From IMG/VR virus record IMGVR_UViG_3300023179_000108, positions 1 to 63,359 of that record: a stretch of DNA of 63,359 bases. One strand, 5' to 3'. The position numbers and the translations under genes are program-made. Below are positions 4,460 to 62,994 of this stretch, piece by piece. Position 1 is the first letter of the stretch. Every line of letters starts with the position of its first letter. Under the pieces are notes generated by a model. It ran no database searches, was not told the DNA's origin, and saw only the letters and a list, made by a program, of their open reading frames with translations. This stretch comes from a virus.

Positions 4460-4827
4460 GGGGATGACTTGGAATTGATTGCTACACGAATGGCAATATT
4501 ACAAGTAGGAAAATGATACTATTCCTTAATATTGTATCAAAAAATAAATGCTGAAGAATTATCTTCCTTTACCTTCGAAGACGCTATGGCTTTCGTTGGT
4601 GCTGATTACGCAGTAGCTGCCTAATCACTCCCGCACACATCGTGGAATTTAAAAAGAATGTGCAACTAGAGTACGGCTCACTAACTCTTTAAATAAAAGT
4701 GAGAAACATAATGATAATGTATGTATAAAACTTATCTATTTGTCTATTATGAATAATATAATAAACTTGTGAGACGTTGATATTATTATTACTTAGCAAG
4801 ACGCCGGTTCGAATCCGGCCATCTCCA
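4460..4827 (+). ncRNA. ssrA: transfer-messenger RNA (tmRNA)
   Basis: 368 nt, the usual tmRNA size. The 5' end GGGGATGACTTGGAATTGAT and the 3' end with T arm GCCGG-TTCGAAT-CCGGC form the tRNA-like domain; acceptor GGGGATG pairs with CATCTCC with one G-U. After AAAATAAAT a tag frame starts at GCT (4550) and stops at TAA (4622-4624): 24 codons, AEELSSFTFEDAM then AFVGADYAVAA. The end DYAVAA is a typical C-terminal degron-like tag. tmRNA rescues stalled ribosomes with SmpB. The tag is longer than the common 8-15 residues. The exact resume codon is inferred. Confidence 0.93.
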
Positions 4828-4881
4828 CTTATATTTAACTTTCTTCCCTATTAGTTTTGTTAAGATTTAAAAAACTAACCT

Positions 4882-23286: not shown

Positions 23287-23454
23287 ATGGAAAAAGATAA
23301 AGACTTTGAATCATTTGGATATAATACAGACAATCCATGTGAAATATGTGGAGAAAAACCTGCTAAAATAGAACCAAGATTCTTTTATACTGTTTGTAAA
23401 GAACATCAGTATTTAACACCCACACAAGTAAGTGAGTTAAAAATAAAGAAATAA
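23287..23454 (+). CDS. small zinc-finger-like protein, 55 aa
   Basis: NPCEICGEKPAKIEPRFFYT then VCKEH: C-x2-C...C-x2-H, a probable treble-clef-like zinc site. Leader TAAAATTAAAAGTTATG follows directly on the tRNA-like 3' end. Confidence 0.65.
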   Translation: MEKDKDFESFGYNTDNPCEICGEKPAKIEPRFFYTVCKEHQYLTPTQVSELKIKK

Positions 23455-23487
23455 TCAGGTGGGGGAATCCTGTCCTGACTACTAAAA
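23455..23487 (+). pseudogene. collapsed tRNA-like element
   Basis: TCAGGTGG, the family 5' end, joined directly to GGGAATCCTGTCCTGACTAC; the whole centre is deleted. Confidence 0.75.
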
Positions 23488-23496
23488 ATAAAATAC

Positions 23497-23583
23497 ATGA
23501 AAACTCTATTTTGGATTTGTTACTATGGGCTTATAGTTGTATTAGGTATATATGCCGTTGTAAAATTCATTAAAAATAAATAA
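23497..23583 (+). CDS. micro membrane protein, 28 aa
   Basis: KTLFWICYYGLIVVLGIYAV then VKFIKNK: one membrane helix. Confidence 0.45.
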   Translation: MKTLFWICYYGLIVVLGIYAVVKFIKNK

Positions 23584-23594
23584 AAATTACAGAA

Positions 23595-23619
23595 GGCAAA
23601 ATAATTTTTTTATATTTAC
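23595..23619 (+). promoter_or_regulatory. early-type promoter
   Basis: GGCAAAATAATTTTTTTATA then TTTAC upstream of 23634. Confidence 0.62.
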
Positions 23620-23633
23620 TAAAATTAAAAATT

Positions 23634-23870
23634 ATGATGTCAAACGATGAAATTCAAAAATGGAATAGAGAAATGTTCAATGAAATGCATGAACCTATTC
23701 AAGAAAGTGTTTCTGATGCTCTAGATTATGTTAAGTATACTTTAGAAGAAGCAAAAGAATGTCATATGGAAACTGAAGTGGTAGTTTGGGCTCTAAAGTA
23801 TATGAAAGATGATCCAACACTAACTATTAAACAGGCAATATCTTACTCATTTAACGATTGGATAAAATAA
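23634..23870 (+). CDS. hypothetical protein, 78 aa
   Basis: Start 23634 or 23637. Helical with ALDYVKYTLEEAKECHMETE and VVWALKYMKDDPTLTIKQAI. Resembles small phage proteins of unknown role. Confidence 0.65.
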   Translation: MMSNDEIQKWNREMFNEMHEPIQESVSDALDYVKYTLEEAKECHMETEVVVWALKYMKDDPTLTIKQAISYSFNDWIK

Positions 23871-23874
23871 ACAA

Positions 23875-24066
23875 ATGAAAACATTTAGAATTATTGAAGA
23901 AGCCCCAGTTATCTGTGTTTGGACATACATAGTTGAAGCAGAAACTGAAGAAGAAGCATTAGAACTAGTAACAAATGGTGATGTTGAAGCAGCGGAGATG
24001 AATATTGAAGTAGATTATGAAGATGCTGAATTCACATACCATATTGAAGAAGAAGAGGCAAAATAA
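23875..24066 (+). CDS. hypothetical acidic protein, 63 aa
   Basis: ICVWTYIVEAETEEEALELV: a strand followed by an acidic helix, the pattern of short 'TEEEA' domain proteins seen in phages and plasmids. Its 3' end overlaps the next promoter. Confidence 0.65.
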   Translation: MKTFRIIEEAPVICVWTYIVEAETEEEALELVTNGDVEAAEMNIEVDYEDAEFTYHIEEEEAK

Positions 24067-24080
24067 TTATTTTATCTTTA
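24057..24080 (+). promoter_or_regulatory. early-type promoter
   Basis: GGCAAAATAATTATTTTATC then TTTA, overlapping the stop of the 23875 gene. Confidence 0.6.
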
Positions 24081-24103
24081 TTTAAACAATTAAAACAAAG
24101 GTT

Positions 24104-46990: not shown

Positions 46991-48874
46991 ATGTCTTCAT
47001 TCAAAAAACTAAGCAGATCAGACGTTACGTATGTTCCATATGTAGCTAATAAGCAATGGAATATTTCTACAAATGGTTATCCTACCTCTTCAATTGTAAT
47101 ATATAAAGGAACTAATACAAGTAGTTTCTATCCTGCTATTACTGAAGATGCATATGAATATGCTGTTTACGCTGAAATAAATCAATTATTTTATCAAACA
47201 TATACGGCTTCATTAGACACATCTTCACTAATGAACTCATTATATTATGAGTCTGCTTCATCTCAACGTCCCACATCATCATACTTTATATTTAATGATA
47301 AAGCAGAGTTAATTAGAAATTATCCTACTGGAGCCGGAGCTGGAGTTAGAGTACTAGCCGTAAATCAAAATGTTTTTGGTGAAAAAGTATTACCAAATAC
47401 TTTTATTTTATCATCGTCTGCTTACTATGTAACAGATGATGGATACGGCAATTTATATGATGGATCTACTCATATCGGAAATATATTTTATGCTCATGGA
47501 TTAGCTATTATAACTAACCAAGATTATCAAGGAATGTTTCCTTTACCTCCATTAGCGTTTGATGATAGTGCTACTTTCTTAACAACAGATTCTCCTAAAT
47601 CTATATCTGTAGCTACAAATGATAGTGGAAGAAGTGGTACTTTAATAAATAATTCATTAACATTATCTGGCAGTACAGAACAATTATCTTATTGGAGTAC
47701 AGGAAGTGGAAACACAGTTGAATTAACTACAACATCAGAAGGAGTATATGAAATATATTATACTATAGGAGCTCAAGTTGCAGGCTCATATATATTAAGA
47801 AGTAATAAAGCTAAAGTTACTGCTATTGTGAACCCTGTACCAACAGCTACACCAACCCCAACACCTACACCGACACCAACACCAACACCAACTCCTACAC
47901 CGACACCGACACCGACACCAACTGCTACTCCAACACCAACGCCGACACCAACACCAACACCGACACCAACACCTACACCGGGACCTGTTACTATATATTA
48001 TAACTTCATAACTAATCCAAGCGGTGGTTATTATGTACCTGCTGTTTCTACTAGCTTATTAATAACAGATAATGGTTCAACTGCTATTAATATTTCTAGC
48101 TCTGCTACTAGTAACTTTGGTTCTCTTGGAAGTAGATCAATAAATGTTACTTTACAATCAACAATAGGTGAGTATACCTTCTTAAAGATAGATAACGTAA
48201 CAACAGCTACTAATATATTTAATACAGTAACTTACGCCCAAGCTACTAGAAACTATAGCTTTACAACAACTAATGGAAATAACTATGCTATAACAGCATC
48301 AGCATATAACTCTCTTGTAACACCAACACCAACAGCTACGCCAACACCAACACCAACTCCAACGCCGTCGCCTACACCAACGCCGGCACCACCAACACCA
48401 ACACCAACACCAACTCCTACACCAACTCCTACACCAACACCAGGACCAAATGAGATAATGTTTATATTTGAAATATCATCTTCGTTGAATGCTAAGATTG
48501 ATCCAACATATATTGATGGTGGTTCGTTAAATACTTCAACATACCAAGCAGGAACTACATTTGCTGTACCTGCTCCAAATACAATTGTAACTGCGGGTGG
48601 TGGAGAAAAAGCAGTATATGTTGATACAACTAATCCTTCATTTGCTTTCCCAGGTAATACTTTCTACTCAGCAGTAGGATTACTTAACCCAGCTTCTGGA
48701 GCTACTATTAGCCAAACTATAACTTATGATATAATTTATAATGGTAGCACAGTAGGTACAGTTAATATGGTTCCAACAAGATTAGTTGGAAATATATTCC
48801 AAATGCCTAATAATATAATAGCATTACCATTTACAGTAGCTAATGGGGATATAATTAAATTCTACTATCATTAA
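46991..48874 (+). CDS. adhesin-like fibre protein with two Thr-Pro linkers, 627 aa
   Basis: N-terminal third is a structural domain with [20 protein letters not shown] (also known in phage structural proteins). Two stretches of alternating Thr-Pro (about residues 284-330 and 444-486) separate three beta-rich domains of about 100 residues. Such stiff linkers suit a tail fibre or adhesin that displays receptor-binding domains. The repeated codons make the linkers prone to length change. Confidence 0.75.
47838..47981 (+). repeat. ACACCAAC-type microsatellite encoding Thr-Pro repeats
   Basis: CCAACACCGACACCAACACC-like hexamers in frame, about 144 nt. Confidence 0.9.
48319..48444 (+). repeat. second Thr-Pro-encoding microsatellite
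   Basis: The same hexamer pattern with a few Ala and Ser codons, about 126 nt. Confidence 0.9.
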
Positions 48875-48885
48875 ACTAAAAAATA

Positions 48886-49191
48886 ATGCCAGTAACACAT
48901 ACAGGACCATTTACAGTATCATTTAAAAACTCACATACTATTAATGAGTTCGAGGTTCGTTGCTTAGTTGAGGAAAGTGATTTTAATTTATCTTATAATC
49001 CAACTTTAGTAACTAATTATGCCAGCGGTTCTGTAAAAGACTTTGCTACTGGTTCTAGTTTTTATACTTATGCTACATCATTAGGTTTATATAATGATAA
49101 TAATGAATTAATGGCTGTAGCTAAATTTGGTAAACCTATGCTTATATCACCAGACACAGATATGACTTTTGTTGTAAAATATGACACATAA
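48886..49191 (+). CDS. small virion protein, 101 aa
   Basis: Essentially the C-terminal module of the 45998 protein: SLGLYNDNNELMAVAKFGKP with the same FDLSYNPT-like lead-in. A stand-alone copy of the module, possibly capping or trimerising the fibre. Overlaps the next start by 1 nt. Confidence 0.7.
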   Translation: MPVTHTGPFTVSFKNSHTINEFEVRCLVEESDFNLSYNPTLVTNYASGSVKDFATGSSFYTYATSLGLYNDNNELMAVAKFGKPMLISPDTDMTFVVKYDT

Positions 49192-49841
49192 TGATTAAAT
49201 TATTAGACATATTAAAAGAGATAAATATTAAGCAAAAAATAGCAATAGGTAGTGGAGACCAACAATCAGTATACCCTTATTTAAAAGATCCAAATTATGT
49301 TATAAAAAAATTTGATTCACAGCAGGATCAACCTGTTCTTAATAGATATGAGATAAAATATTACCTTAAAATGTTAGAACTATATCCAAAATATATAGCT
49401 AATATTATAATTCCGGATGGAAATATAAAATATTATTTTCAAGAAAAAGTAGATGTAAAAAAAGCACAAGAAGATATATGGGATGTTGTTATAAAAATAA
49501 TAAAAAAAGTAGCATTAGATTTAGAAAAAAAATATAAAACACCAAATGAAGTATATAATGATTTAGTTGCTGTGGATATATTTAATAATGCTAGCAGTTG
49601 GGAAGATATAAAAAATATAAAAGATATAGATGATTTCTTTGAAATTAATTATGGTGAAGGAATACCAATGGATGATTTATTCAACAACTATATTTATAAT
49701 AATTACTCTAAAGATATACCTCTAGTACAAAAATTAAAACCAGTTTGGGATATAGGTAAAAAAATAACTCAATTTGGATCATTTCATGAAGATAATTTAG
49801 GATATGATAAAGATGGTAATTTTAAAATAATAGATCTTTAA
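49191..49841 (+). CDS. kinase-like protein with N-terminal leader, 216 aa
   Basis: Begins MIKLLDILKEI, the leader shared by several proteins downstream. Then IAIGSGDQQSVYPYL resembles a Gly-rich loop and VIKKFD carries a candidate ATP-binding Lys. The end FHEDNLGYDKDGNFKIIDL holds H199-x-D201-N202 and D215, like the catalytic and Mg-binding residues of kinase/aminoglycoside-phosphotransferase folds. It stops one residue after D215, so there is no C-lobe beyond the activation start. Kinase activity is inference. The leader suggests packaging in the head. Confidence 0.6.
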   Translation: MIKLLDILKEINIKQKIAIGSGDQQSVYPYLKDPNYVIKKFDSQQDQPVLNRYEIKYYLKMLELYPKYIANIIIPDGNIKYYFQEKVDVKKAQEDIWDVVIKIIKKVALDLEKKYKTPNEVYNDLVAVDIFNNASSWEDIKNIKDIDDFFEINYGEGIPMDDLFNNYIYNNYSKDIPLVQKLKPVWDIGKKITQFGSFHEDNLGYDKDGNFKIIDL

Positions 49842-49847
49842 CATGTT

Positions 49848-50279
49848 ATGACACATAAATGGAAATATTGGGATCGTTTTGAACCTGAAAATTATTATGG
49901 TTTTGTTTATAAAATTACCAATTTAAAAACTGGAAAGTTTTATATTGGGAAAAAATCGTTTTATCATAACAAAAAACATAAGCTCACTAAAAAACAACTT
50001 ACTGAACAAACAGGCCGCGGTCGTAAACCTACTCATGAAACAATTCAAGTTGAAAGCGATTGGAAAACATACTGGGGTTCTAATAAGCAATTAATAGCTG
50101 ATATTAAAGAACTAGGTGAAGATAAATTTGATTGTACTATCTTAAAATTATGTAAGACCAAAAAACAACTTACGTATTGGGAAATGCACCATCAATGTCT
50201 GAGTCAATGTATAGTTAGTTATGATTTAAGTTATAATGACAATATATTAGGTAAATTCTTTCCTAAAGACTTGGTTTAG
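49848..50279 (+). CDS. GIY-YIG-like endonuclease
   Basis: 143 residues. GFVYKITNLKTGKFYIGKKS carries the GIY (here F-V-Y) and YIG halves; WKTYWGSNKQL and the Glu in YWEMHHQ supply later conserved positions. Resembles Seg-type or free-standing phage homing nucleases. Confidence 0.78.
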   Translation: MTHKWKYWDRFEPENYYGFVYKITNLKTGKFYIGKKSFYHNKKHKLTKKQLTEQTGRGRKPTHETIQVESDWKTYWGSNKQLIADIKELGEDKFDCTILKLCKTKKQLTYWEMHHQCLSQCIVSYDLSYNDNILGKFFPKDLV

Positions 50280-50300
50280 GCAAACTAATATCATATATTT
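50279..50300 (+). promoter_or_regulatory. early-type promoter for the primase operon
   Basis: GGCAAACTAATATCATATAT, overlapping the TAG of the endonuclease; an early-class promoter inside the late region. Confidence 0.5.
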
Positions 50301-50306
50301 CCTTTA

Positions 50307-51248
50307 ATGGAAAATACAGCTTTATTATTTCTGATTGAATCAGTACTAGGTAAGGGACAATCTACAAGTAAAGGTAACTACGCATTTAAATGTCCATTCT
50401 GTACTCATCATAAAAATAAATTAGAAATTAATTTAAATACAACATCAAAACGTGAAAACTTTTGGCATTGTTGGATATGTGGAGCTAAAGGAAAAACATT
50501 ACTTACTTTATTTAAAAAAATAAAAGTATCTAATAATAAAATAAGTGATTTAAATATATTAATTGTTCCTACTAAAAAGGAAGAACATATTCCTATTAGT
50601 ACTATTGAATTACCTAAAGAATTTATTTCATTATCACGTTCCATAGAAGATAAAGTTGCTCAAATTGAAGCAAAACATGCTTTAAGATTCCTAAAAAAAC
50701 GAAATATATCATCAGATGATATTATAAAATATAATATTGGTTTTTGTAAAGAAGGAAAATATGAGTATCGTGTTATTGTTCCTTCATATGATGAACAAGG
50801 CAAATTAAATTACTTTATAGCGCGTGACTATAAAGAACCATCACTTCAAAAATATAAAAATCCACCCGTATCGGCTAAAGACGTAATCGGGTTTGAGCTA
50901 TACATAAATTGGGATGCACCTATTATTCTTGTTGAAGGAATATTTGATGCTCTCACCATTAAACGAAATGTTATTCCTTTATTTGGTAAAGTAATACATG
51001 GTAAACTAATGGAAAAACTAGTTAAATCTTCTGTAGATAGAATTTATATTGCTTTAGATAATGATGCTAGACGTGATGCTTTGAAACAAGCTGAAATGTT
51101 GATGTCGTATGGTAAAGAAGTATATTTGGTTGAAATGGAAGGTAAAGACGCTAATGAAATAGGTTTTGAACAATTCTTTAAAACTATCGAGCAAACATAT
51201 CCTCTAAATCTTCAAAGTTTGCTTGAAAAAAAATTACAATTAATATGA
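50307..51248 (+). CDS. DNA primase (DnaG/gp61-like)
   Basis: 313 residues. Zinc finger C29-x2-C32...C55-x2-C58 (CPFC, CWIC), a catalytic core, and a Toprim domain with ILVEGIFDAL (Glu210) and IALDNDARRD (Asp251, Asp253). Makes RNA primers on the lagging strand. Shorter than DnaG, without a helicase-binding C-terminus. Preceded by its own early-type promoter. Confidence 0.9.
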   Translation: MENTALLFLIESVLGKGQSTSKGNYAFKCPFCTHHKNKLEINLNTTSKRENFWHCWICGAKGKTLLTLFKKIKVSNNKISDLNILIVPTKKEEHIPISTIELPKEFISLSRSIEDKVAQIEAKHALRFLKKRNISSDDIIKYNIGFCKEGKYEYRVIVPSYDEQGKLNYFIARDYKEPSLQKYKNPPVSAKDVIGFELYINWDAPIILVEGIFDALTIKRNVIPLFGKVIHGKLMEKLVKSSVDRIYIALDNDARRDALKQAEMLMSYGKEVYLVEMEGKDANEIGFEQFFKTIEQTYPLNLQSLLEKKLQLI

Positions 51249-52027
51249 TTGAAAAAAATGTAAATATACTTAAAGATCCTAAGATCAAACGTATAATTGA
51301 ACACAACGAACAAGACAAACAAATAAATGTTTTAGATTCACGTTTTTATAAGCGTAATGAAAAATATTATCCATCTGTTACTTCTATTTTAAATTATTTT
51401 CCTAAAAATAAATTCTTTCATGAATGGCTTAAAGACGTAGGACATAACAGTGATATTATAGCCGCTAAAGCATCTGCTGAAGGTACTCAAGTACATAATG
51501 CTGTTGATAGATTTTTAAATGGAGAAGAAATTCAATGGATAGATGAATATGGACACGCTATATATTCACTTGAAGTTTGGAAAATGATTTTAAAATTTGC
51601 TGAGTTCTGGAATACACATAAACCTGAACTTATAGCTACAGAATATCATTTATTCTCAGATAGCCATGAATATGCTGGTACTGCTGATTTAATAGTCAGG
51701 TTAAATAATCAAGTTTGGTTACTTGATGTTAAAACATCAAATTCACTTCATACCTCCTATGATTTACAGTTATCAGCTTATGCTGTTGCTTGGAATGAAA
51801 CACACAATACACTTATTGAGCGCACAGGTATTATATGGTTAAAAGCAGCTACTCGTGGTGAAGGTAAAGGTGATTCAATTCAAGGTAAAGGATGGCAACT
51901 AAAACCAATAGACGGTATAGCTACTAATTTTAAAATGTTTCAAAATATATATGAAATATATAAACTTGAAAATCCAGATTTTAAACCTATGACTGAGTTA
52001 TTACCTACGTCGGTCAAAGTATCTTAA
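51245..52027 (+). CDS. RecB-like PD-(D/E)XK exonuclease
   Basis: 260 residues. His84 in GTQVHNAVDRF, Asp148 in GTADLIV, Asp161-x-Lys163 in LLDVKTS and LQLSAYAVAW (Gln175, Tyr179) are the motifs of Cas4/RecB nuclease domains. No helicase part. Probably acts on DNA ends in replication or recombination. Start overlaps the primase stop by 4 nt. Confidence 0.85.
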   Translation: MIEKNVNILKDPKIKRIIEHNEQDKQINVLDSRFYKRNEKYYPSVTSILNYFPKNKFFHEWLKDVGHNSDIIAAKASAEGTQVHNAVDRFLNGEEIQWIDEYGHAIYSLEVWKMILKFAEFWNTHKPELIATEYHLFSDSHEYAGTADLIVRLNNQVWLLDVKTSNSLHTSYDLQLSAYAVAWNETHNTLIERTGIIWLKAATRGEGKGDSIQGKGWQLKPIDGIATNFKMFQNIYEIYKLENPDFKPMTELLPTSVKVS

Positions 52028-52040
52028 GTATATTTATTTG
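52028..52040 (+). promoter_or_regulatory. late-type promoter box
   Basis: GTATATTTATTTG, immediately before the GTG start; leaves almost no leader, so this may not be a working promoter. Confidence 0.3.
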
Positions 52041-52041
52041 T

Positions 52042-52731
52042 GTGAATCAACAAATAACAATAGTGATTCCTTGTAAAAACGAAGGTGAAGGAATTGTAGA
52101 TGTTATCAAATTAATATTAAAACAAATAAATTGTAAAATAATAATAGCAGACTCTTCAGATGATGAAGAGTCTATTTTATTATTGCATAAATATATTTCA
52201 TTACATTCAAATATACAAGTTATAAAAGGTGGATTACCATCAGTAGCTCGTAATAATGGAGCTAAATTAGTAACTACTCCTTATGTATTGTTTTTAGATG
52301 CTGACATTTATATATATAAGAAAAATTTAATAAGAAAATGTATTAGGTTAGCAATTCAAAATAACTATGATTTAGTTACTTGTAAATTTAAAACTGATAA
52401 ACCTTATAGATGGGTATTTAGAATATTTAATATAATACAATGGTTTAGTTTATTAACTAAACCTTTTGCTTTAGGTGGTTTTATGTTATTTAAAACAGAA
52501 ACATTTAATAAACTAAAAGGATTCAATGAACAAGATAAAGTTGCTGAAGACTACAGGCTTAGCTCAAAAATTAAATCTAAAAAATTTAAAGTGTTTAATG
52601 GTTATGTATATACTCCAAGTAGAAGATTTGATAAAAAAGGTGTATGGTATATGATTAAATTAATGTGGAAATCTTGGATTAATCAAAATAATGATAAATT
52701 TTTTGAGAATGATCAAAATTACTGGAAATAA
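52042..52731 (+). CDS. glycosyltransferase family 2
   Basis: 229 residues, GTG start. ITIVIPCKNEGEGIVDVIKL, then IIADSSDD, VARNNGAK and FLDADIYIYKKNL (metal-binding D-A-D) are classic GT2 blocks; VAEDYRLSSKI supplies the ED motif. A hydrophobic stretch (FRIFNIIQWFSLLTKPFALG) may bind membrane. Likely modifies a surface lipid or polysaccharide. Confidence 0.85.
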   Translation: MNQQITIVIPCKNEGEGIVDVIKLILKQINCKIIIADSSDDEESILLLHKYISLHSNIQVIKGGLPSVARNNGAKLVTTPYVLFLDADIYIYKKNLIRKCIRLAIQNNYDLVTCKFKTDKPYRWVFRIFNIIQWFSLLTKPFALGGFMLFKTETFNKLKGFNEQDKVAEDYRLSSKIKSKKFKVFNGYVYTPSRRFDKKGVWYMIKLMWKSWINQNNDKFFENDQNYWK

Positions 52732-52734
52732 AGT

Positions 52735-53481
52735 ATGAAAAAATATCAAACAATTATTGTCTCTGATTTACATTTAGGAATAAAAGATAGTAAAGCAGAA
52801 GAATTTATAGAATTCATTGAAAATTATTCTACTGATTTATTAATACTAAATGGTGATATTATAGATGGATGGGCTATTAATAGAGGAAGTAAATGGAAAA
52901 AACATCATACTAAAGTAATATCTAAATTATTAAAATTATCAAATAAAACAAAAATAATTTGGATTAGAGGAAATCATGATGAATTTATACAAGAATTTAT
53001 AGGATCTTATTTTGGTGGTATTGAAATTAGAGAAGATTATCGATTACAATATTATGAACATGTTGAATACGATATTTGGAAATCAAAATGTTATTATATA
53101 TTTCATGGAGATATAATTGATATTTTTATAACAAAATATAAATGGTTATCAAAATTAGGAGCAATTGGATATGATTTTGCATTATGGTTAAATAGATGGT
53201 ATAATACTTACCGCAAATGGCGTAAATTACCATACCAATCAATTTCACAAAAAATTAAAGCAGGTGTGAAGACAGCTACTAATTATATTAACGATTTTGA
53301 AACTACTGCTCTCTCTATGGCAAACAAAAACGGCTGTGATGGCGTAATTTGTGGACATATACATCAACCAGAAGACAGAATAATAAATGGTAAACGATAT
53401 TTAAATAGTGGAGATTGGGTTGAAAATATGAGTGCTATACTTATAGATAAAAATGGAAAAATAGAAATTTATAAAAAATAA
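52735..53481 (+). CDS. metallophosphoesterase, LpxH/UDP-diacylglucosamine hydrolase-like
   Basis: 248 residues. SDLHLG (Asp11, His13), LNGDIIDGW (Asp41), RGNHDEF (Asn80, His81), FHGD and CGHIHQPE. The order and the WINRxY-type middle (FALWLNRWYNTYRKW) match LpxH-like hydrolases acting on UDP-2,3-diacylglucosamine. Next to the glycosyltransferase, it suggests that the phage alters lipid A or a related envelope glycolipid (inference). Confidence 0.82.
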   Translation: MKKYQTIIVSDLHLGIKDSKAEEFIEFIENYSTDLLILNGDIIDGWAINRGSKWKKHHTKVISKLLKLSNKTKIIWIRGNHDEFIQEFIGSYFGGIEIREDYRLQYYEHVEYDIWKSKCYYIFHGDIIDIFITKYKWLSKLGAIGYDFALWLNRWYNTYRKWRKLPYQSISQKIKAGVKTATNYINDFETTALSMANKNGCDGVICGHIHQPEDRIINGKRYLNSGDWVENMSAILIDKNGKIEIYKK

Positions 53482-53484
53482 ATT

Positions 53485-53610
53485 ATGTATAAGATTTTAG
53501 ATACACTGTTTAACTTTAATTCAAATAAAAAAATAGACTTTGAAAAAGGTGTTTATTGGGGAATAATCACATTTATTTCTTTATTATTGTTTTTTTCATA
53601 TATACTATAA
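53485..53610 (+). CDS. small membrane protein, 41 aa
   Basis: MYKILDTLFNFNSNKKIDFE then GVYWGIITFISLLLFFSYIL: one C-terminal membrane helix. Last gene before a terminator. Confidence 0.55.
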   Translation: MYKILDTLFNFNSNKKIDFEKGVYWGIITFISLLLFFSYIL

Positions 53611-53622
53611 ATTTATTGTTTT

Positions 53623-53635
53623 AAATATTTATAGG
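53623..53635 (+). promoter_or_regulatory. late-type promoter box
   Basis: AAATATTTATAGG directly before the hairpin at 53634. Confidence 0.4.
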
Positions 53636-53669
53636 TGGCTTGGTTTGTCCAAGTCACCTATTTATTTTT
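53634..53669 (+). terminator. hairpin, probable terminator
   Basis: GGTGGCTTGG-TTTG-TCCAAGTCACC then TATTTATTTTT; could alternatively be a stable 5' leader hairpin of the 53676 mRNA if the box just upstream is its promoter. Confidence 0.6.
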
Positions 53670-53675
53670 ACAACA

Positions 53676-55076
53676 ATGAATTTAGGACAATACTTAGTAC
53701 AACAGTTATTAGAGGATAATATACAAGAAGTATACCCAAAGCGTTCTTCAGATGACATTAATCAAAATTATGTAACTAAAAAAGAACATTGGATTGAAAA
53801 AGCAGCTGCTGACTTTAATTATCCAATACCAGATATACGTTTTGCTTTTATAGCGGGAGGTATGGTAGTGTTAACTGATGATATTTGGTCTAAATTAGAA
53901 AATCAAGACTTAGAAGATGATTTAGAACTTGATGGTCCAGCAATGGTATTAAATTATGATGATGATAAGTATTATTTAGTATATGGAGGTAATTTATTAA
54001 GAAAACATAAAGAATTAAATAAAATACCTAAAGTATTAATGGGTAAACTTAATGTTAAAGGTCCTAAACCATTTCCATTAAAAGAAGGATTAGATAAAGA
54101 TACATTAAACTCATTTTTAAAATTTGCAATTAAAGAATTAGGATTAAAACAGTTACCTTCAAAGATTACTTTATCTAAAAACGTTAAAAAAGCAAGAGAA
54201 CGCCATACATTTGGTACATTCAATTCTGAAAATAAAAGCATTTGGTTATACACTAACAACAGAAATACAGCTGATATTTTAAGAACATTAGCTCATGAAT
54301 TAGTACATCGTAAACAAGAGGAAGATGGTAGATTAAAACCTGATAGTGGTGAAACAGGTTCTGAAATTGAAAATGAAGCTAATGCTAAAGCGGGTGTATT
54401 GTTAAGAAAGTTTGGAGAAAAAAATCCAATGATATACGAGGGAATGTATGGTAATTACTTATTTGGAGATAAAAATACAGGAGCTGCTATTGGTTGGTAT
54501 GAGAATGAAATGGAATCTGATACTCCTGCTGAGAAAAAATTATTTAATATCCTAAAAAAATATACCGATTCAGAATATGAAACTTACTCAGCTGTAAATT
54601 TGGATGATTTTATCCCTATTTTTAAAAAATTAAAAAACCAATATCCTGAAATAGTAGATCCTAAATTATCATCTAATACCTACATTTATAGAGGTACTAG
54701 TTTACCAAAAGAACAAATAGATAAATTAAATGCTGAGATAAAAGATACAACATATTATAAACAAGGATATATTATTCCTAATCAAACGTATAAGTCTAGA
54801 AGAAAAGCCCAATCGTGGAGTATTAATTATTTTACAGCTTCAGGATTTGCTTTTACAAGTGCTGAAAAAAAAGGAGGAGTACCTGTTATAATGAGAGCAA
54901 AAGTATCAGATGCTGATTTATATTTTAATTCAAAATTTATAGACAAATTAAGCACTCAAGCAGAAGATGAAACTTTCAATATAGTTAACCCAATTCCAGT
55001 AGATATTATGGTTATGGAATTTTATGAAGATGAATTTGAAGATATAGAAGCAGGATATTTACATACTAAAAAATAA
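53676..55076 (+). CDS. metallopeptidase-ADP-ribosyltransferase fusion with leader-like N-terminus, 466 aa
   Basis: Start at 53676; the frame is open from 53640 but that part runs through a hairpin. N-terminal NLGQYLVQQLLEDNIQE is a leader-like helix. Residues 40-125 are a small unknown domain. Residues 140-245 carry HELVH (207-211) with downstream E230/E232/E234, the signature of a zinc metallopeptidase. Residues 254-450 carry an ART layout: YIYRG (Arg339), QSWSINYF (Ser380-Trp-Ser382) and EDE (430-432), the R-S-E pattern. This half is homologous to the 62005 protein (EGMYGNYLFGD against EGIFGDYLFAD). ART enzymes attach ADP-ribose from NAD to targets. The fusion is unusual. Host targets are unknown. 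Confidence 0.75.
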   Translation: MNLGQYLVQQLLEDNIQEVYPKRSSDDINQNYVTKKEHWIEKAAADFNYPIPDIRFAFIAGGMVVLTDDIWSKLENQDLEDDLELDGPAMVLNYDDDKYYLVYGGNLLRKHKELNKIPKVLMGKLNVKGPKPFPLKEGLDKDTLNSFLKFAIKELGLKQLPSKITLSKNVKKARERHTFGTFNSENKSIWLYTNNRNTADILRTLAHELVHRKQEEDGRLKPDSGETGSEIENEANAKAGVLLRKFGEKNPMIYEGMYGNYLFGDKNTGAAIGWYENEMESDTPAEKKLFNILKKYTDSEYETYSAVNLDDFIPIFKKLKNQYPEIVDPKLSSNTYIYRGTSLPKEQIDKLNAEIKDTTYYKQGYIIPNQTYKSRRKAQSWSINYFTASGFAFTSAEKKGGVPVIMRAKVSDADLYFNSKFIDKLSTQAEDETFNIVNPIPVDIMVMEFYEDEFEDIEAGYLHTKK

Positions 55077-55080
55077 TGTT

Positions 55081-55665
55081 ATGAGCGAATCAATGTTACA
55101 ACGTGAATTTCGTGAACGTGATGTTCAACGAATGAGAAATATAATCACTAAAAATGCTGATGCTAAAACAGTAACACAAGTTGGTTATACTAAAAAACAA
55201 ATAGAATATAATGAAGGCGATATTTGGGAAGAAAACGGCAAACAGTGGATTATTAAAAATGGTATAAAACAGACTGTTACTCGTTTTGATAAGTTAAAAA
55301 AATCAATCATATTACCTATTACATGCCCTAAATGTAATAAAGCAATGAAGGCAACATCATTAAATAAAAAGATGTGGCCTATTCATGGCACCTGTTTTGA
55401 TTGTGTCATTGAAATGGAAACTGAGTTAAAACGTCAAGGTAAGTTTGAAGAATATGCTCGCAATTTAGTTAATCGAGGTGTTAAAACTCATATTAAAGAT
55501 GTTGAAGACTTAATTTTAGAAATAGCATTAGAAGACAATAATGAAGAATTTGTTACTGAACAAGGTGATATTGAAAAATGGGCTGGTAAAGGTATTGATA
55601 AACAAAAAATAATACAAGAATTACAAGAATATATAGCTAAACTTAAAGACCATATCTCTTCATAA
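55081..55665 (+). CDS. zinc-ribbon protein, 194 aa
   Basis: N-terminal SESMLQREFRERDVQRMRNI helix, then ITCPKCNKAMKATSLNKKMW...CFDCVIEME, a C-x2-C...C-x2-C ribbon at about 86-117, and a helical acidic C-terminus. I recall similar proteins in T4-like environmental phages without a function. Possibly a structural or assembly factor. Confidence 0.68.
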   Translation: MSESMLQREFRERDVQRMRNIITKNADAKTVTQVGYTKKQIEYNEGDIWEENGKQWIIKNGIKQTVTRFDKLKKSIILPITCPKCNKAMKATSLNKKMWPIHGTCFDCVIEMETELKRQGKFEEYARNLVNRGVKTHIKDVEDLILEIALEDNNEEFVTEQGDIEKWAGKGIDKQKIIQELQEYIAKLKDHISS

Positions 55666-56244: not shown

Positions 56245-56907
56245 ATGAAAGTAACACAAGTACCCTTTTCAGCTGATCAATACATTAAAGAAGAACATAA
56301 AAAAACTCAAATATACCTCCATCACACTGCAGGTAATGCAAATCCAATTGCTGTTTTTAATGATTGGGGAGCAAATAAAGAAAGAATAGCAACATGCGTT
56401 ACTATAGGTGGAAAACCGGGTGTTAGTAAAGGATGGATAGACGGAGAAGTAGCTCAAGGATTTAGCTCTAAGTATTGGGCTTATCATTTAGGTCTTAAAG
56501 AATCTACATTTCAAAAATATGGAATAACATATAGATCGTTAGATAAAACTTCAATTGGAATTGAAATATGTAATTGGGGTCAATTAACATATAAGAATGG
56601 TAAGTTTTTTAATTATGTTAATAGAGAAGTCCCTAAAGATGAAGTAGTAGAATTACCTGTTGCTCATCGTGGATTTAAATTTTACCATGCTTATACAGAT
56701 GCTCAAATAGCAACTGTACAAGAATTACTCACATCATGGAAAAACCACTATAATATCCCTATCCATTATAACCCAGACATTTGGGATATAACGCCTAGAG
56801 CGTTAAGAGGTGAGCCCGGAGTATACACTCATAACTCAGTTAGAATAGATAAAGTGGATGTATCACCACAACCAAGATTAATTGAAATGCTTAAATCATT
56901 ACCATAA
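56245..56907 (+). CDS. N-acetylmuramoyl-L-alanine amidase (Amidase_2)
   Basis: 220 residues. IYLHHTAGNANP (His26/His27), WAYHLGLKE, SIGIEICNWG and KFYHAYTDAQIATVQELL are the blocks of zinc amidases that split the stem peptide from muramic acid. No signal peptide. This is the third peptidoglycan hydrolase in the window; as it lies in the late cluster it may be virion-associated. Overlaps the next ATG. Confidence 0.88.
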   Translation: MKVTQVPFSADQYIKEEHKKTQIYLHHTAGNANPIAVFNDWGANKERIATCVTIGGKPGVSKGWIDGEVAQGFSSKYWAYHLGLKESTFQKYGITYRSLDKTSIGIEICNWGQLTYKNGKFFNYVNREVPKDEVVELPVAHRGFKFYHAYTDAQIATVQELLTSWKNHYNIPIHYNPDIWDITPRALRGEPGVYTHNSVRIDKVDVSPQPRLIEMLKSLP

Positions 56908-58210: not shown

Positions 58211-58471
58211 ATGAAGCCATACACCGACATTGAAACTACATCCGAATACACTATACGTGAATTCGATGAAAATATAGACCCTGTTGAATTGCTTTGGCAT
58301 CGCGACGATGAAAATCGTACAATAGAAATTATAGGAAAAACTAATTGGCAAGTACAACTTGACAATGAATTACCAACATCATTAAATAAGTCTATATTTA
58401 TACCAAGACACTGCTGGCATAGAGTAATTAAAGGTAGTGGTAAATTGCAATTAAAGATCTATAAATCGTGA
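58211..58471 (+). CDS. cupin-like small beta-barrel protein, 86 aa
   Basis: VELLWHRDDENRTIEIIGKT, NWQVQLDNELP, IFIPRHCWHRVIKGSGKLQL: a cupin-like pattern with His/Arg positions conserved in many T4-like phages. Function unknown. Its TGA overlaps the GTG start of the next gene. Confidence 0.72.
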   Translation: MKPYTDIETTSEYTIREFDENIDPVELLWHRDDENRTIEIIGKTNWQVQLDNELPTSLNKSIFIPRHCWHRVIKGSGKLQLKIYKS

Positions 58472-58887
58472 TCAAACTAACCGACATATTAAAAGAAATA
58501 CTATTAGAAGATCGCTGCAAACGCATTGCTGATCGCCGCTATAGTAAACCATCAGCATACAAATCAGGTGCTATTGTAAGATGTCGTAAAGGTGATATTT
58601 GGAAAGGAATTAAATCTGAAGCGTTTTTCATTGGTGAAGATGATATTGATCAACTAACTGAAAAACAAAAAGAAACTCTCCGCACCTGGTTTAAACGCAA
58701 AGGCGCTCCCGGCAAAACAGGCGGTTGGGTTGATTGTAATACATGCCGTGAAGTAGATGGGAAGAAAAAATGTAAACCATGCGGCAGACAAAAAGGTGAA
58801 AAACGAGCTAAATACCCATCATGTCGCCCAACACCATCACAATGTGGTGACCCAGGCAAAGGTAAATCATGGGGGAAAACAAAATAA
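58468..58887 (+). CDS. leader-bearing Cys-rich basic protein, 139 aa
   Basis: GTG start; GTG overlaps the upstream TGA. Leader MIKLTDILKEILLED, then AIVRCRKGDIWKG, LRTWFKRKGAPGKTGGWVDC, CKPCG and YPSCRPTPSQC. The Cys/Arg-rich half resembles DUF5872-type phage proteins, perhaps zinc-binding. Leader and basic character suggest a DNA-associated internal head protein (inference). Confidence 0.7.
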   Translation: MIKLTDILKEILLEDRCKRIADRRYSKPSAYKSGAIVRCRKGDIWKGIKSEAFFIGEDDIDQLTEKQKETLRTWFKRKGAPGKTGGWVDCNTCREVDGKKKCKPCGRQKGEKRAKYPSCRPTPSQCGDPGKGKSWGKTK

Positions 58888-60881: not shown

Positions 60882-61946
60882 ATGACAGTTACTGATATAC
60901 TTACAGAATGGTCTTATAGATGCCCAGATGGTATAGTTGATTTAAAGGATCCTATTAAAATAAACATATTGAATGAAATACTAAAAGAAATAGGATTTCA
61001 AGAAACTATAGAAGAAGCTATGTCACCTAGAAAAGAAGCCATAGACATTTTAATAAGTAAATATAAAAATGAATTAGGCCCTCATAGTCGTCCTGGACGA
61101 ATAAAAAATATAGGTAATAAACTAACACCTGACGAATTCAAAAAAAGAATAGAAAATACAGATGTATTTAATAATCCTAAAGTAGAAAAAATAGACGCTG
61201 GCGATTCTAGAAATCCAAGCATGAGTAATCCTGCATTTAAATTTGAATATAAAGGTCAAAACATAATAATTGTTTTAGGAAGAGAAGCTCCTGGTCTAGA
61301 AGCTGAAAAGCAACAAGTAGATAAAATAAACAGTTTTATTCAAAGTATTGAAGGTGGAATAAATATAAAAATAAAGGATAAAATATACTATAATATCAAA
61401 TCAGCTAAACTTGATCTTAAAAATAAACACGCTGATATAATATTAGAAGGGGATGAAAATATTTATATTCAATATAAAGATGCCAACGAAGCAGATGAAT
61501 TTCAACAGTATTCTGGTATAGAAAAATTTAAAAGTGAAACTATTGTTAGGGACTTTATAGATGAAGTTCCTTCTAGCGGAGTAAAAAAAGGTGAAATGTA
61601 TAAAAGAAAAATTCCAAAAGGTAATTTATACAATCGGGGTATATTTGGAATTGGTAATTCTGAAGGAGATAAAGTTCAAATAGTATGTATAGGACCTATA
61701 CAAATAGAAAAAGAAGGTAATTATTACACTATAAAAGGAAGTACTGTTACTTTAATAGATGGAAGCCCAATTCCTGAAGATTATCAACCTTACTTAGGAG
61801 CAAGATATGCTTCTGATAGAAATCAAGAAGATAAAAGCCATACCCGATTTGGAATATACCCAGAAAAATATATTAAAAAGTTTAAAAATCCAACACAAGA
61901 AGAACCAACACTAGAAGAAATACTTTTTTCTTTAAGGGCAAAATAA
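60882..61946 (+). CDS. nuclease-like protein with conserved phage N-terminus, 354 aa
   Basis: TVTDILTEWSYRCPDGIVDL is a conserved N-terminal block of T4-like phage proteins, followed by another leader-like helix (INILNEILKEIG). The middle has KHADIILEGDENIYIQYKDA: Asp, then a strand with Gln-x-Lys, compatible with a PD-(D/E)XK-type site; this is tentative. The C-terminal part is a beta domain. Its last codons overlap the duplicated promoter at 61937. Confidence 0.6.
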   Translation: MTVTDILTEWSYRCPDGIVDLKDPIKINILNEILKEIGFQETIEEAMSPRKEAIDILISKYKNELGPHSRPGRIKNIGNKLTPDEFKKRIENTDVFNNPKVEKIDAGDSRNPSMSNPAFKFEYKGQNIIIVLGREAPGLEAEKQQVDKINSFIQSIEGGINIKIKDKIYYNIKSAKLDLKNKHADIILEGDENIYIQYKDANEADEFQQYSGIEKFKSETIVRDFIDEVPSSGVKKGEMYKRKIPKGNLYNRGIFGIGNSEGDKVQIVCIGPIQIEKEGNYYTIKGSTVTLIDGSPIPEDYQPYLGARYASDRNQEDKSHTRFGIYPEKYIKKFKNPTQEEPTLEEILFSLRAK

Positions 61947-62004: not shown

Positions 62005-62994
62005 ATGATTAAATTGATAGATATATTAAAAGAAGGAATATTTGGAGATTACTTGTTTGCAGATGAAAAATCTGGGGTAGAATATGGACTTTACGATAAA
62101 GAATTAGAAAAAGATACTCCTGAAGAATATAAACTATTTCAAGATTTAAAGTTATATGCTGCAGGCGGAGATTTTGAGGATATTAGTTTAGATAAACATG
62201 CTAGTTTATTAAAACAACTTAAAAAAGAATACCCTTCTTTTATTAAAACAAATTTATCTCCTGAAGATTACATATATAGAGGTACAGTTATTTTTAAAGA
62301 TAAATTAATTGATTTAATAAAAGAAAAAAAAATCATAAAAAATAAAGCATCTTATACTGTTTCTAATATTCCATACACTTCTAAAAAAATAATATCATCA
62401 TGGTCTTCTAATTTCTTTGCAGCTCATGATTTTGCTTATGAAACTCTTTTAAGAAAAAAAAATAATAACTTTATCCCTGCAGTTTTAAGAGTTAAAGTAA
62501 AAGAAGCAGATGTTTATTTTAAAGATGATTTTTTTGTAAAAATAAGTGATAATCAAGAATGGGAAGTTTTAAATATGAAACAACCTATAAATGTGGATAT
62601 GGTAATTCAAAGAAGAGATATCAATAATATAAAAATACGAGATAAAAATGAACTTTCTTTTGCAGAAGAATTAGCTATAAAAAGAATTAAAGATTATATA
62701 AAACAACCTGATTATTATTTATATATTAGTAATCTTCCTATTAATGAAATACCAAAAGAATTAAAGTTAGTAAAAGATGATTTTTTTGCTGATAATACTC
62801 CTATAAAATCATTACCTGATAATTTAGAAGTACAGGGAGATTTATATTTAAGATACTCTGCTATTAATATTTTACCTAAAAATCTAAAAGTTAAAGGAAA
62901 TTTAAATTTAGAAGGTACCCCTTTATCTAAAAAATATTCTCAAGAAGAACTAAAAAAATTACTTCCTGGTGTTGGAGGAGAAATTATAACTTAG
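62005..62994 (+). CDS. ADP-ribosyltransferase-like protein with leader and leucine-rich-like repeats, 329 aa
   Basis: Leader MIKLIDILKEG, then EGIFGDYLFAD (shared with the 53676 protein). ART pattern: YIYRGT (Arg92), SSWSSNFFAAHDFAYETLL (Ser132-Trp-Ser134) and QEWE (Glu185, Glu187), fitting the R-S-E class. Residues 238-305 are leucine-rich-like repeats (LPINEIPKELKLV, IKSLPDNLEVQGDLYLR, INILPKNLKVKGNLNLEGTP), which could bind a host target. T4 Alt is a packaged ART that modifies host RNA polymerase; a similar role is inference. The gene is flanked by a direct repeat. Confidence 0.75.
   Translation: MIKLIDILKEGIFGDYLFADEKSGVEYGLYDKELEKDTPEEYKLFQDLKLYAAGGDFEDISLDKHASLLKQLKKEYPSFIKTNLSPEDYIYRGTVIFKDKLIDLIKEKKIIKNKASYTVSNIPYTSKKIISSWSSNFFAAHDFAYETLLRKKNNNFIPAVLRVKVKEADVYFKDDFFVKISDNQEWEVLNMKQPINVDMVIQRRDINNIKIRDKNELSFAEELAIKRIKDYIKQPDYYLYISNLPINEIPKELKLVKDDFFADNTPIKSLPDNLEVQGDLYLRYSAINILPKNLKVKGNLNLEGTPLSKKYSQEELKKLLPGVGGEIIT

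Follow-up and report, generated by a model that had tools for sequence, protein, structure and literature searches.

A probable head-packaged polyprotein of an uncultured T4-type phage joins a zincin-like peptidase to an ADP-ribosyltransferase payload exchanged at a predicted prohead-protease site

The protein encoded at 53676-55076 of IMG/VR record IMGVR_UViG_3300023179_000108 (hereafter the window, analyzed over its whole length of 63,359 nucleotides) is probably a head-packaged polyprotein of T4 type that an S77 prohead protease would cleave to release separate effectors, with payloads swapped at a predicted cleavage site. The folds, leader, candidate sites, and exchange were obtained by sequence comparison or modeling, and from these we infer packaging, cleavage, injection, and activity. 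The joint downstream of the peptidase is a cassette site, at which related phages carry unrelated payloads in place of the ADP-ribosyltransferase (ART).

The open reading frame call and translation of the window gave a chain of 466 residues, referred to as P0001; an in-frame TTG lies upstream at 53640, and relatives start at the same MNLGQY methionine as P0001. The locus is laid out as follows.

53676-55076, plus strand: 466-aa polyprotein-like ORF (leader, ParB-like domain, zincin peptidase, ART)
53676-53729, plus strand: N-terminal leader MNLGQYLVQQLLE(DNIQE), residues 1-18, with [LI]xE at E13 and E18
53745-54062, plus strand: ParB/sulfiredoxin-like N-terminal domain, residues about 24-129, from a weak fold match
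54078-54086, plus strand: L-K-E site between domains, residues 135-137, in a linker modeled with low confidence (pLDDT<50 at 130-137)
54087-54431, plus strand: zincin-like metallopeptidase module with HELVH 207-211 and Glu232, from conservation and a model
54432-54440, plus strand: I-Y-E junction, residues 253-255, a predicted prohead-protease site and the left edge of payload exchange
54441-55073, plus strand: putative ART payload, residues 256-466, with R339, S380-W-S382, and E430-x-E432, from motifs and a model
54434-55066, plus strand: cassette whose place is taken by unrelated sequence in L001, a near-identical contig, from DNA comparison

Searches of the whole of P0001 against Pfam and PHROGs yielded sub-threshold metallopeptidase matches alone and nothing for the ART, and a sequence search of PDB chains recovered no credible relatives. 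An initial annotation of the sequence had placed HELVH, a downstream Glu, and an R-S-E motif in one 466-residue chain. All are present, the downstream Glu at residue 232, and they are real and conserved, since H207, E208, H211, and E232 were invariant in 38/38 rows of the peptidase alignment and R339, S380-W-S382, E430, and E432 in 9/9 ART rows; this conservation is well past a chance pattern.

The model of residues 1-256 (mean pLDDT 84.6, pTM 0.50) contained a zincin-like fold at residues 138-252. Its best VIA matches were zincin-like (1oz9, Z 9.0; Wss1, Z 8.3; SPRTN, Z 8.2), followed by selecase (Z 7.9), lethal factor (Z 7.8), and IrrE (Z 7.3), and the best Foldseek match to the PDB, at E 0.034, was not significant. 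The zinc site expected by the initial annotation around residues 207-234 agrees with the conserved HELVH and E232 in a zincin-like fold, with E232 the likely third zinc ligand, and conservation and fold together support residues 138-252 as a zincin peptidase of putative activity. The N-terminal part showed a weak Foldseek fold match to the ParB-like protein PadC (6ryk, E 0.09), with ParB, Noc, and sulfiredoxin chains scoring lower.

The C-terminal half was modeled alone (residues 256-466, nine sequences; mean pLDDT 75, pTM 0.70), so that R84, S125-W126-S127, E175, and E177 in the ART-only numbering correspond to R339, S380-W-S382, E430, and E432 of P0001. The R, STS-like, and ExE motifs are present in the order required for the R-S-E clade; strand 81-88 contains R84, strand 124-127 contains S125-S127, and strand 177-180 opens with E177, with E175 just ahead of it. 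In VIA-align comparisons with the top chains, 8/8 at Z>=5 belonged to the ART superfamily; the best match was Vis (4xzj; Z 6.5, rmsd 3.1, 131 aligned), and HopU1, Arr-2, and KptA were also matched. Bacterial toxins, among them lethal factor, cholera toxin, and pertussis toxin, entered the analysis as fold-search rows alone. Foldseek gave six matches at E<=0.001 among viral models, the next being phage proteins named rifampin ART and ModB at E 0.002-0.003, and no significant match against the PDB alone (best E 0.16). The predicted fold was thus ART-like by model and structural alignment, as the initial annotation had expected, and conservation and fold support the C-terminal half as an R-S-E-type ART, with putative catalysis. 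It shares the motif order and modeled fold with Vis/HopU1/SpvB-like enzymes but differs from them in having no Pfam family match in a profile scan and in the 8-18% identity of its structural alignments with known ARTs. A search of an annotated phage collection did not find this ART, and a genome collection gave 10 pattern matches, of which 0 were confirmed.

A second copy of the ART is encoded elsewhere in the window, directly after a ten-residue leader and with no peptidase attached. In both proteins the ART starts with Gly after Glu, following MIKLIDILKE in the second copy and ...MIYE in P0001. This copy and other genes with a similar start are listed below.

62005-62994, plus strand: second ART copy, 38% identical to P0001 residues 252-447, with a repeat-like C-terminal part
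62005-62034, plus strand: 10-residue leader MIKLIDILKE, the start of the second ART copy
49191-49841, plus strand: leader gene, MIKLLDILKE, with a weak YrbL/kinase-like match; cleanly absent from L001
56002-56238, plus strand: leader gene, MHKLLDLINE, from the leader pattern
58468-58887, plus strand: leader gene, MIKLTDILKE, with DUF5872 at 1.8e-6, from the leader pattern and Pfam

The 62005-62994 product also had a sub-threshold match to PBECR3, a phage nuclease-like family (E 4e-5, residues 180-257), overlapping the ART end. A leader gene of another record, L132:3423-4097 (G003 23423-24097), had no Pfam match and contained a YRG-like 'IIWRGT' stretch, and may encode another ART.

The 10-residue MIKLxDILxE form starts unrelated genes in the window and related records. 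A 10-mer pattern requiring hydrophobic residues at positions 4, 7, and 8 and Glu at 10, which was designed once the window had been seen, starts 4/113 window ORFs (expected 0.16, p 2e-5), 4/214 ORFs in G001 (expected 0.32), and 7/231 in G003 (expected 0.36, p 1e-7); by eye, 2/4 of the matches in G001 and 1/7 in G003 resembled ordinary enzyme genes. Across all ORFs, a loose [ILV]xE profile rose at most weakly near the N-terminus, most strongly in the window; the tighter 10-mer alone was enriched. A second leader type, MNLGQYLAxxLLE, stands before different domains in relatives, and in seven unique polyproteins it lies internally, immediately preceded by L-N-E or L-S-E. P0001 has an N-terminal leader of 10-19 residues ending in L/I-x-E, as in the T4 IP and Alt proteins. 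In T4 IPIII, as described in PMC9026906, the first 10 residues constitute the capsid-targeting sequence and suffice for targeting, residues 4 and 7 serving targeting and residues 8 and 10 processing.

Larger related records encode T4-type head machinery, with an S77 prohead protease above the curated cut-off in 13/15 and a Gp23 capsid protein in 14/15; the S77 protease was absent from the window, a 63 kb fragment, and from 6/7 of the other exchange-pair records, all fragments. The major capsid protein (MCP) propeptides of relatives start MNIQQLLE, and in 7/7 capsid-protein copies LLE ends at residues 8, 34, and 50, and V-x-E at residue 59. By its baseplate protein, the closest cultured phage is Flavobacterium phage immuto (43% identical), whose gene 183 product carries an NMNAT annotation and additionally matches the peptidase module. 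The window additionally encodes a tmRNA with its tag peptide (4460-4828) and seven tRNAs; elsewhere, L123 (G004) holds a tandem pair of major capsid protein genes, and the capsid-protein match at G008:C1:113418-114815 spans two TAA codons.

T4 gp21 cleaves after L/I-X-E (PMC9026906), a motif that I-Y-E at residues 253-255 fits. P0001 contains five [LI]xE, at E13 and E18 in the leader, E137 in the linker, E154 in a helix, and E255 at the junction; four of the five fall in the leader or the two linkers, the exception being E154, in a folded part. Among 43 relatives with upstream modules, [LIM]xE occurred in the interval matching the E137 linker between the ParB-like domain and peptidase in 39, compared with 1-9 of 43 for intervals across the ParB-like part and 0-3 of 43 for the peptidase core; a second peak, in 20-31 of 43, coincided with the beginning of the peptidase module. 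Individual ART domains hold 0-3 internal [LI]xE, so that the presence of the motif does not by itself prove a site.

Scans of viral contigs for the peptidase module gave 132 confirmed loci (80 taken), and a broader alignment gave 577 (80 taken); counts cover the loci taken, with identical proteins counted once, and one list of 67 loci was hand-picked with duplicates left out. In the set taken, many members stand alone as short proteins whose N-terminus is a leader of MRAIEFLSES or MRYNEFIFES type and whose last residues are I[FY]Q; [ILVFYM]-x-E-[STANGK] fell within about the first 14 residues in 41/46 complete stand-alone members <260 aa, against 556/7011 control windows (7.9%). For the residue at the junction, sets of 61 and 56 loci were merged to 110 unique relatives, with the window protein outside the 110 and with L088, L180, and L216, in which the junction pattern was not found, left out. 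Eighty of the 110 stop at the junction, with a final residue of Q in 75, N in 3, H in 1, and E in 1. Payloads of >10 residues follow it in 25 (22 E, 2 N, 1 D), and tails of 3-8 residues in 5 (4 E, 1 D). Fused members thus usually have E for Q, a change that would yield the T4 prohead-protease motif L/I-x-E, and the three fused exceptions with N or D have L-S-E, L-L-E, or I-S-E within about 20 residues downstream. Across the 110 relatives, with kinship ignored, fusion was associated with E (Fisher p 2e-18). A tree with 62 rows required at least 12 changes of the fusion label and at least 7 of E; a relatedness-aware pair test found 2 concordant independent pairs and 0 opposed, and was not significant (median p 0.5).

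The payloads that follow the peptidase in relatives include ARTs, a 5'-nucleotidase-like domain (NT5C, sub-threshold), and others, among them 246 residues in L031 that match no Pfam family. NMNAT-like (NAD-making) modules accompany the peptidase in some polyproteins (for example L005, L007, L019, L021, and L022) and could supply an ART with NAD. The peptidase is also found in proteins of 2447 and 2484 residues (L064, L067), whose leader is like that of window gene 60882-61946.

Comparison of near-identical contigs located the exchange. L001 1-2178 is 94.4% identical to window 47014-49191, L001 2167-6758 is 93.3% identical to window 49847-54433 (4599-nt alignment), and L001 7179-7713 is 96.6% identical to window 55067-55601 (535 nt), with two differences: gene 49191-49841 is gone, and an unrelated payload takes the place of 54434-55066. 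On the left, the exchange begins within the Ile codon of I-Y-E, 7 nt short of where the Glu codon ends, and the right break falls in the last codons of the gene, at the stop codon. Six contig pairs were compared, including this one, and four show exchange or insertion at or near the junction. L048/L057 break at IYE, on the final base of the Glu codon; L010/L020, with an ART and a different payload, break inside the Glu codon of an adjacent T-L-x-E; and L005/L007 differ by a payload insertion 9-30 nt past the junction site. In L031, on a contig shared with L005, the inserted payload starts IIKLKNILKE-A, which looks like a former leader whose ATG had become ATA. The remaining pairs showed a C-terminal part of differing length with no clear break found at the junction (L047/L050) and the same kind of payload in both (L049/L052).

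These observations are consistent with a mechanism in which the N-terminal leader would target the chain to the prohead core, like the capsid-targeting sequence of the T4 internal proteins. The S77 prohead protease would then cut after L/I-x-E, taking off the leader at E13/E18 and, at the domain boundaries E137 and E255, freeing the ParB-like domain, the zincin peptidase, and the ART. The freed enzymes would enter the host with the DNA, where the ART may ADP-ribosylate host proteins, as T4 Alt does, and the zincin may cut a host or phage protein; different payloads may equip the phage against different hosts or defenses. Host action after injection, suggested by the initial annotation, is plausible because the N-terminus resembles a T4-type capsid-targeting leader.

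Three other readings bear on this mechanism. P0001 might be packaged and injected uncut as one multi-domain effector, as reported for N4 vRNAP-like polyvalent proteins that are packaged unprocessed (PMC5512222), and cleavage of P0001 is itself a prediction; the coincidence of [LI]xE sites with linkers and with the exchange points makes this unlikely, if the least unlikely of the three. Somewhat less probable is that the protein is not head cargo, the leader leading elsewhere (tail tube, baseplate) or being a recurrent start, and the enzyme acting after expression in the infected cell. MIKLxDILxE does start small genes amid apparent neck and tail genes (G001 107886-108224, G003 56514-56852), and tail genes, not a head module, lie upstream of the window gene; however, the leader resembles the T4 capsid-targeting sequence described in PMC9026906 in its length, in the spacing of its hydrophobic residues, and in its final E, and the MCP propeptides of relatives start similarly.

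The least probable of the three is that the zincin domain, rather than the prohead protease, frees the ART by autoproteolysis, an activity suggested for the metallopeptidase domains of polyvalent proteins (PMC5512222) and compatible with the peptidase lying immediately N-terminal to the ART in all 9 fused ART loci found. Yet most relatives (80/110) end at the junction and have nothing there to release, the joint carries the P1 residue of the prohead protease, and the ART is also found without a peptidase. The suggestion in the initial annotation that either half could mature the other is therefore not supported, as the junction has the L/I-x-E of a third enzyme, the prohead protease, and the ART at 62005-62994 has no peptidase beside it.

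With cleavage by the prohead protease as the favored reading, P0001 can be set beside known systems. T4 Alt is packaged in the head and ejected (PMC9026906), and phage ARTs packaged in heads were already known from a survey (PMC9503650). P0001 resembles T4 IPI-III and Alt in a short leader ending in L/I-x-E with unrelated cargos behind a shared leader, in an ART among the cargos, and in the S77 protease of relatives, but differs in having several enzyme modules per chain with predicted sites between them and swapped payloads, and in that its packaging is predicted. Models of P0001 also show the polyvalent-protein trait of several disparate enzymatic domains, including a zincin, in one chain. 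Polyvalent proteins likewise join zincin metallopeptidase, ART, ParB-like, and nucleotidyltransferase modules and are predicted to enter the host with the DNA, whereas here the joints look like sites for the prohead protease, not like products of an embedded peptidase, and a leader recurs inside the chain. The metallopeptidase-ART combination itself is therefore already known, and the earlier view of the fusion as undescribed in phage was too strong, PMC5512222 reporting zincin metallopeptidase-ART combinations in phage proteins. Polymorphic toxins share the constant N-terminal part and C-terminal cassette replacement; the P0001 locus differs from them in having no payload-specific immunity gene directly downstream, and L001 keeps the same downstream gene start (96.6% identical) despite the swapped payload. 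A literature search of limited depth found no description of payload exchange at prohead-protease sites.

We give even chances to the broader proposal that T4-type phages possess a polymorphic set of head-packaged effectors driven by recombination, in which L/I-x-E acts in maturation and also marks the joint where payloads (ART, 5'-nucleotidase, unknown domains) are swapped, inserted, or fused, with a former leader sometimes left buried in the chain. T4 internal proteins with nothing but the leader in common are reported to block type IV restriction (PMC12373910), and an anti-defense role for some cargos is plausible on that account. Few internal proteins of uncultured T4-type phages have known functions, and the leader together with L/I-x-E joints may provide a sequence rule for finding their injected effectors. 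The arrangement suggests that anti-host payloads could be exchanged without loss of delivery, as the maturation protease would free any domain plugged in behind the site.
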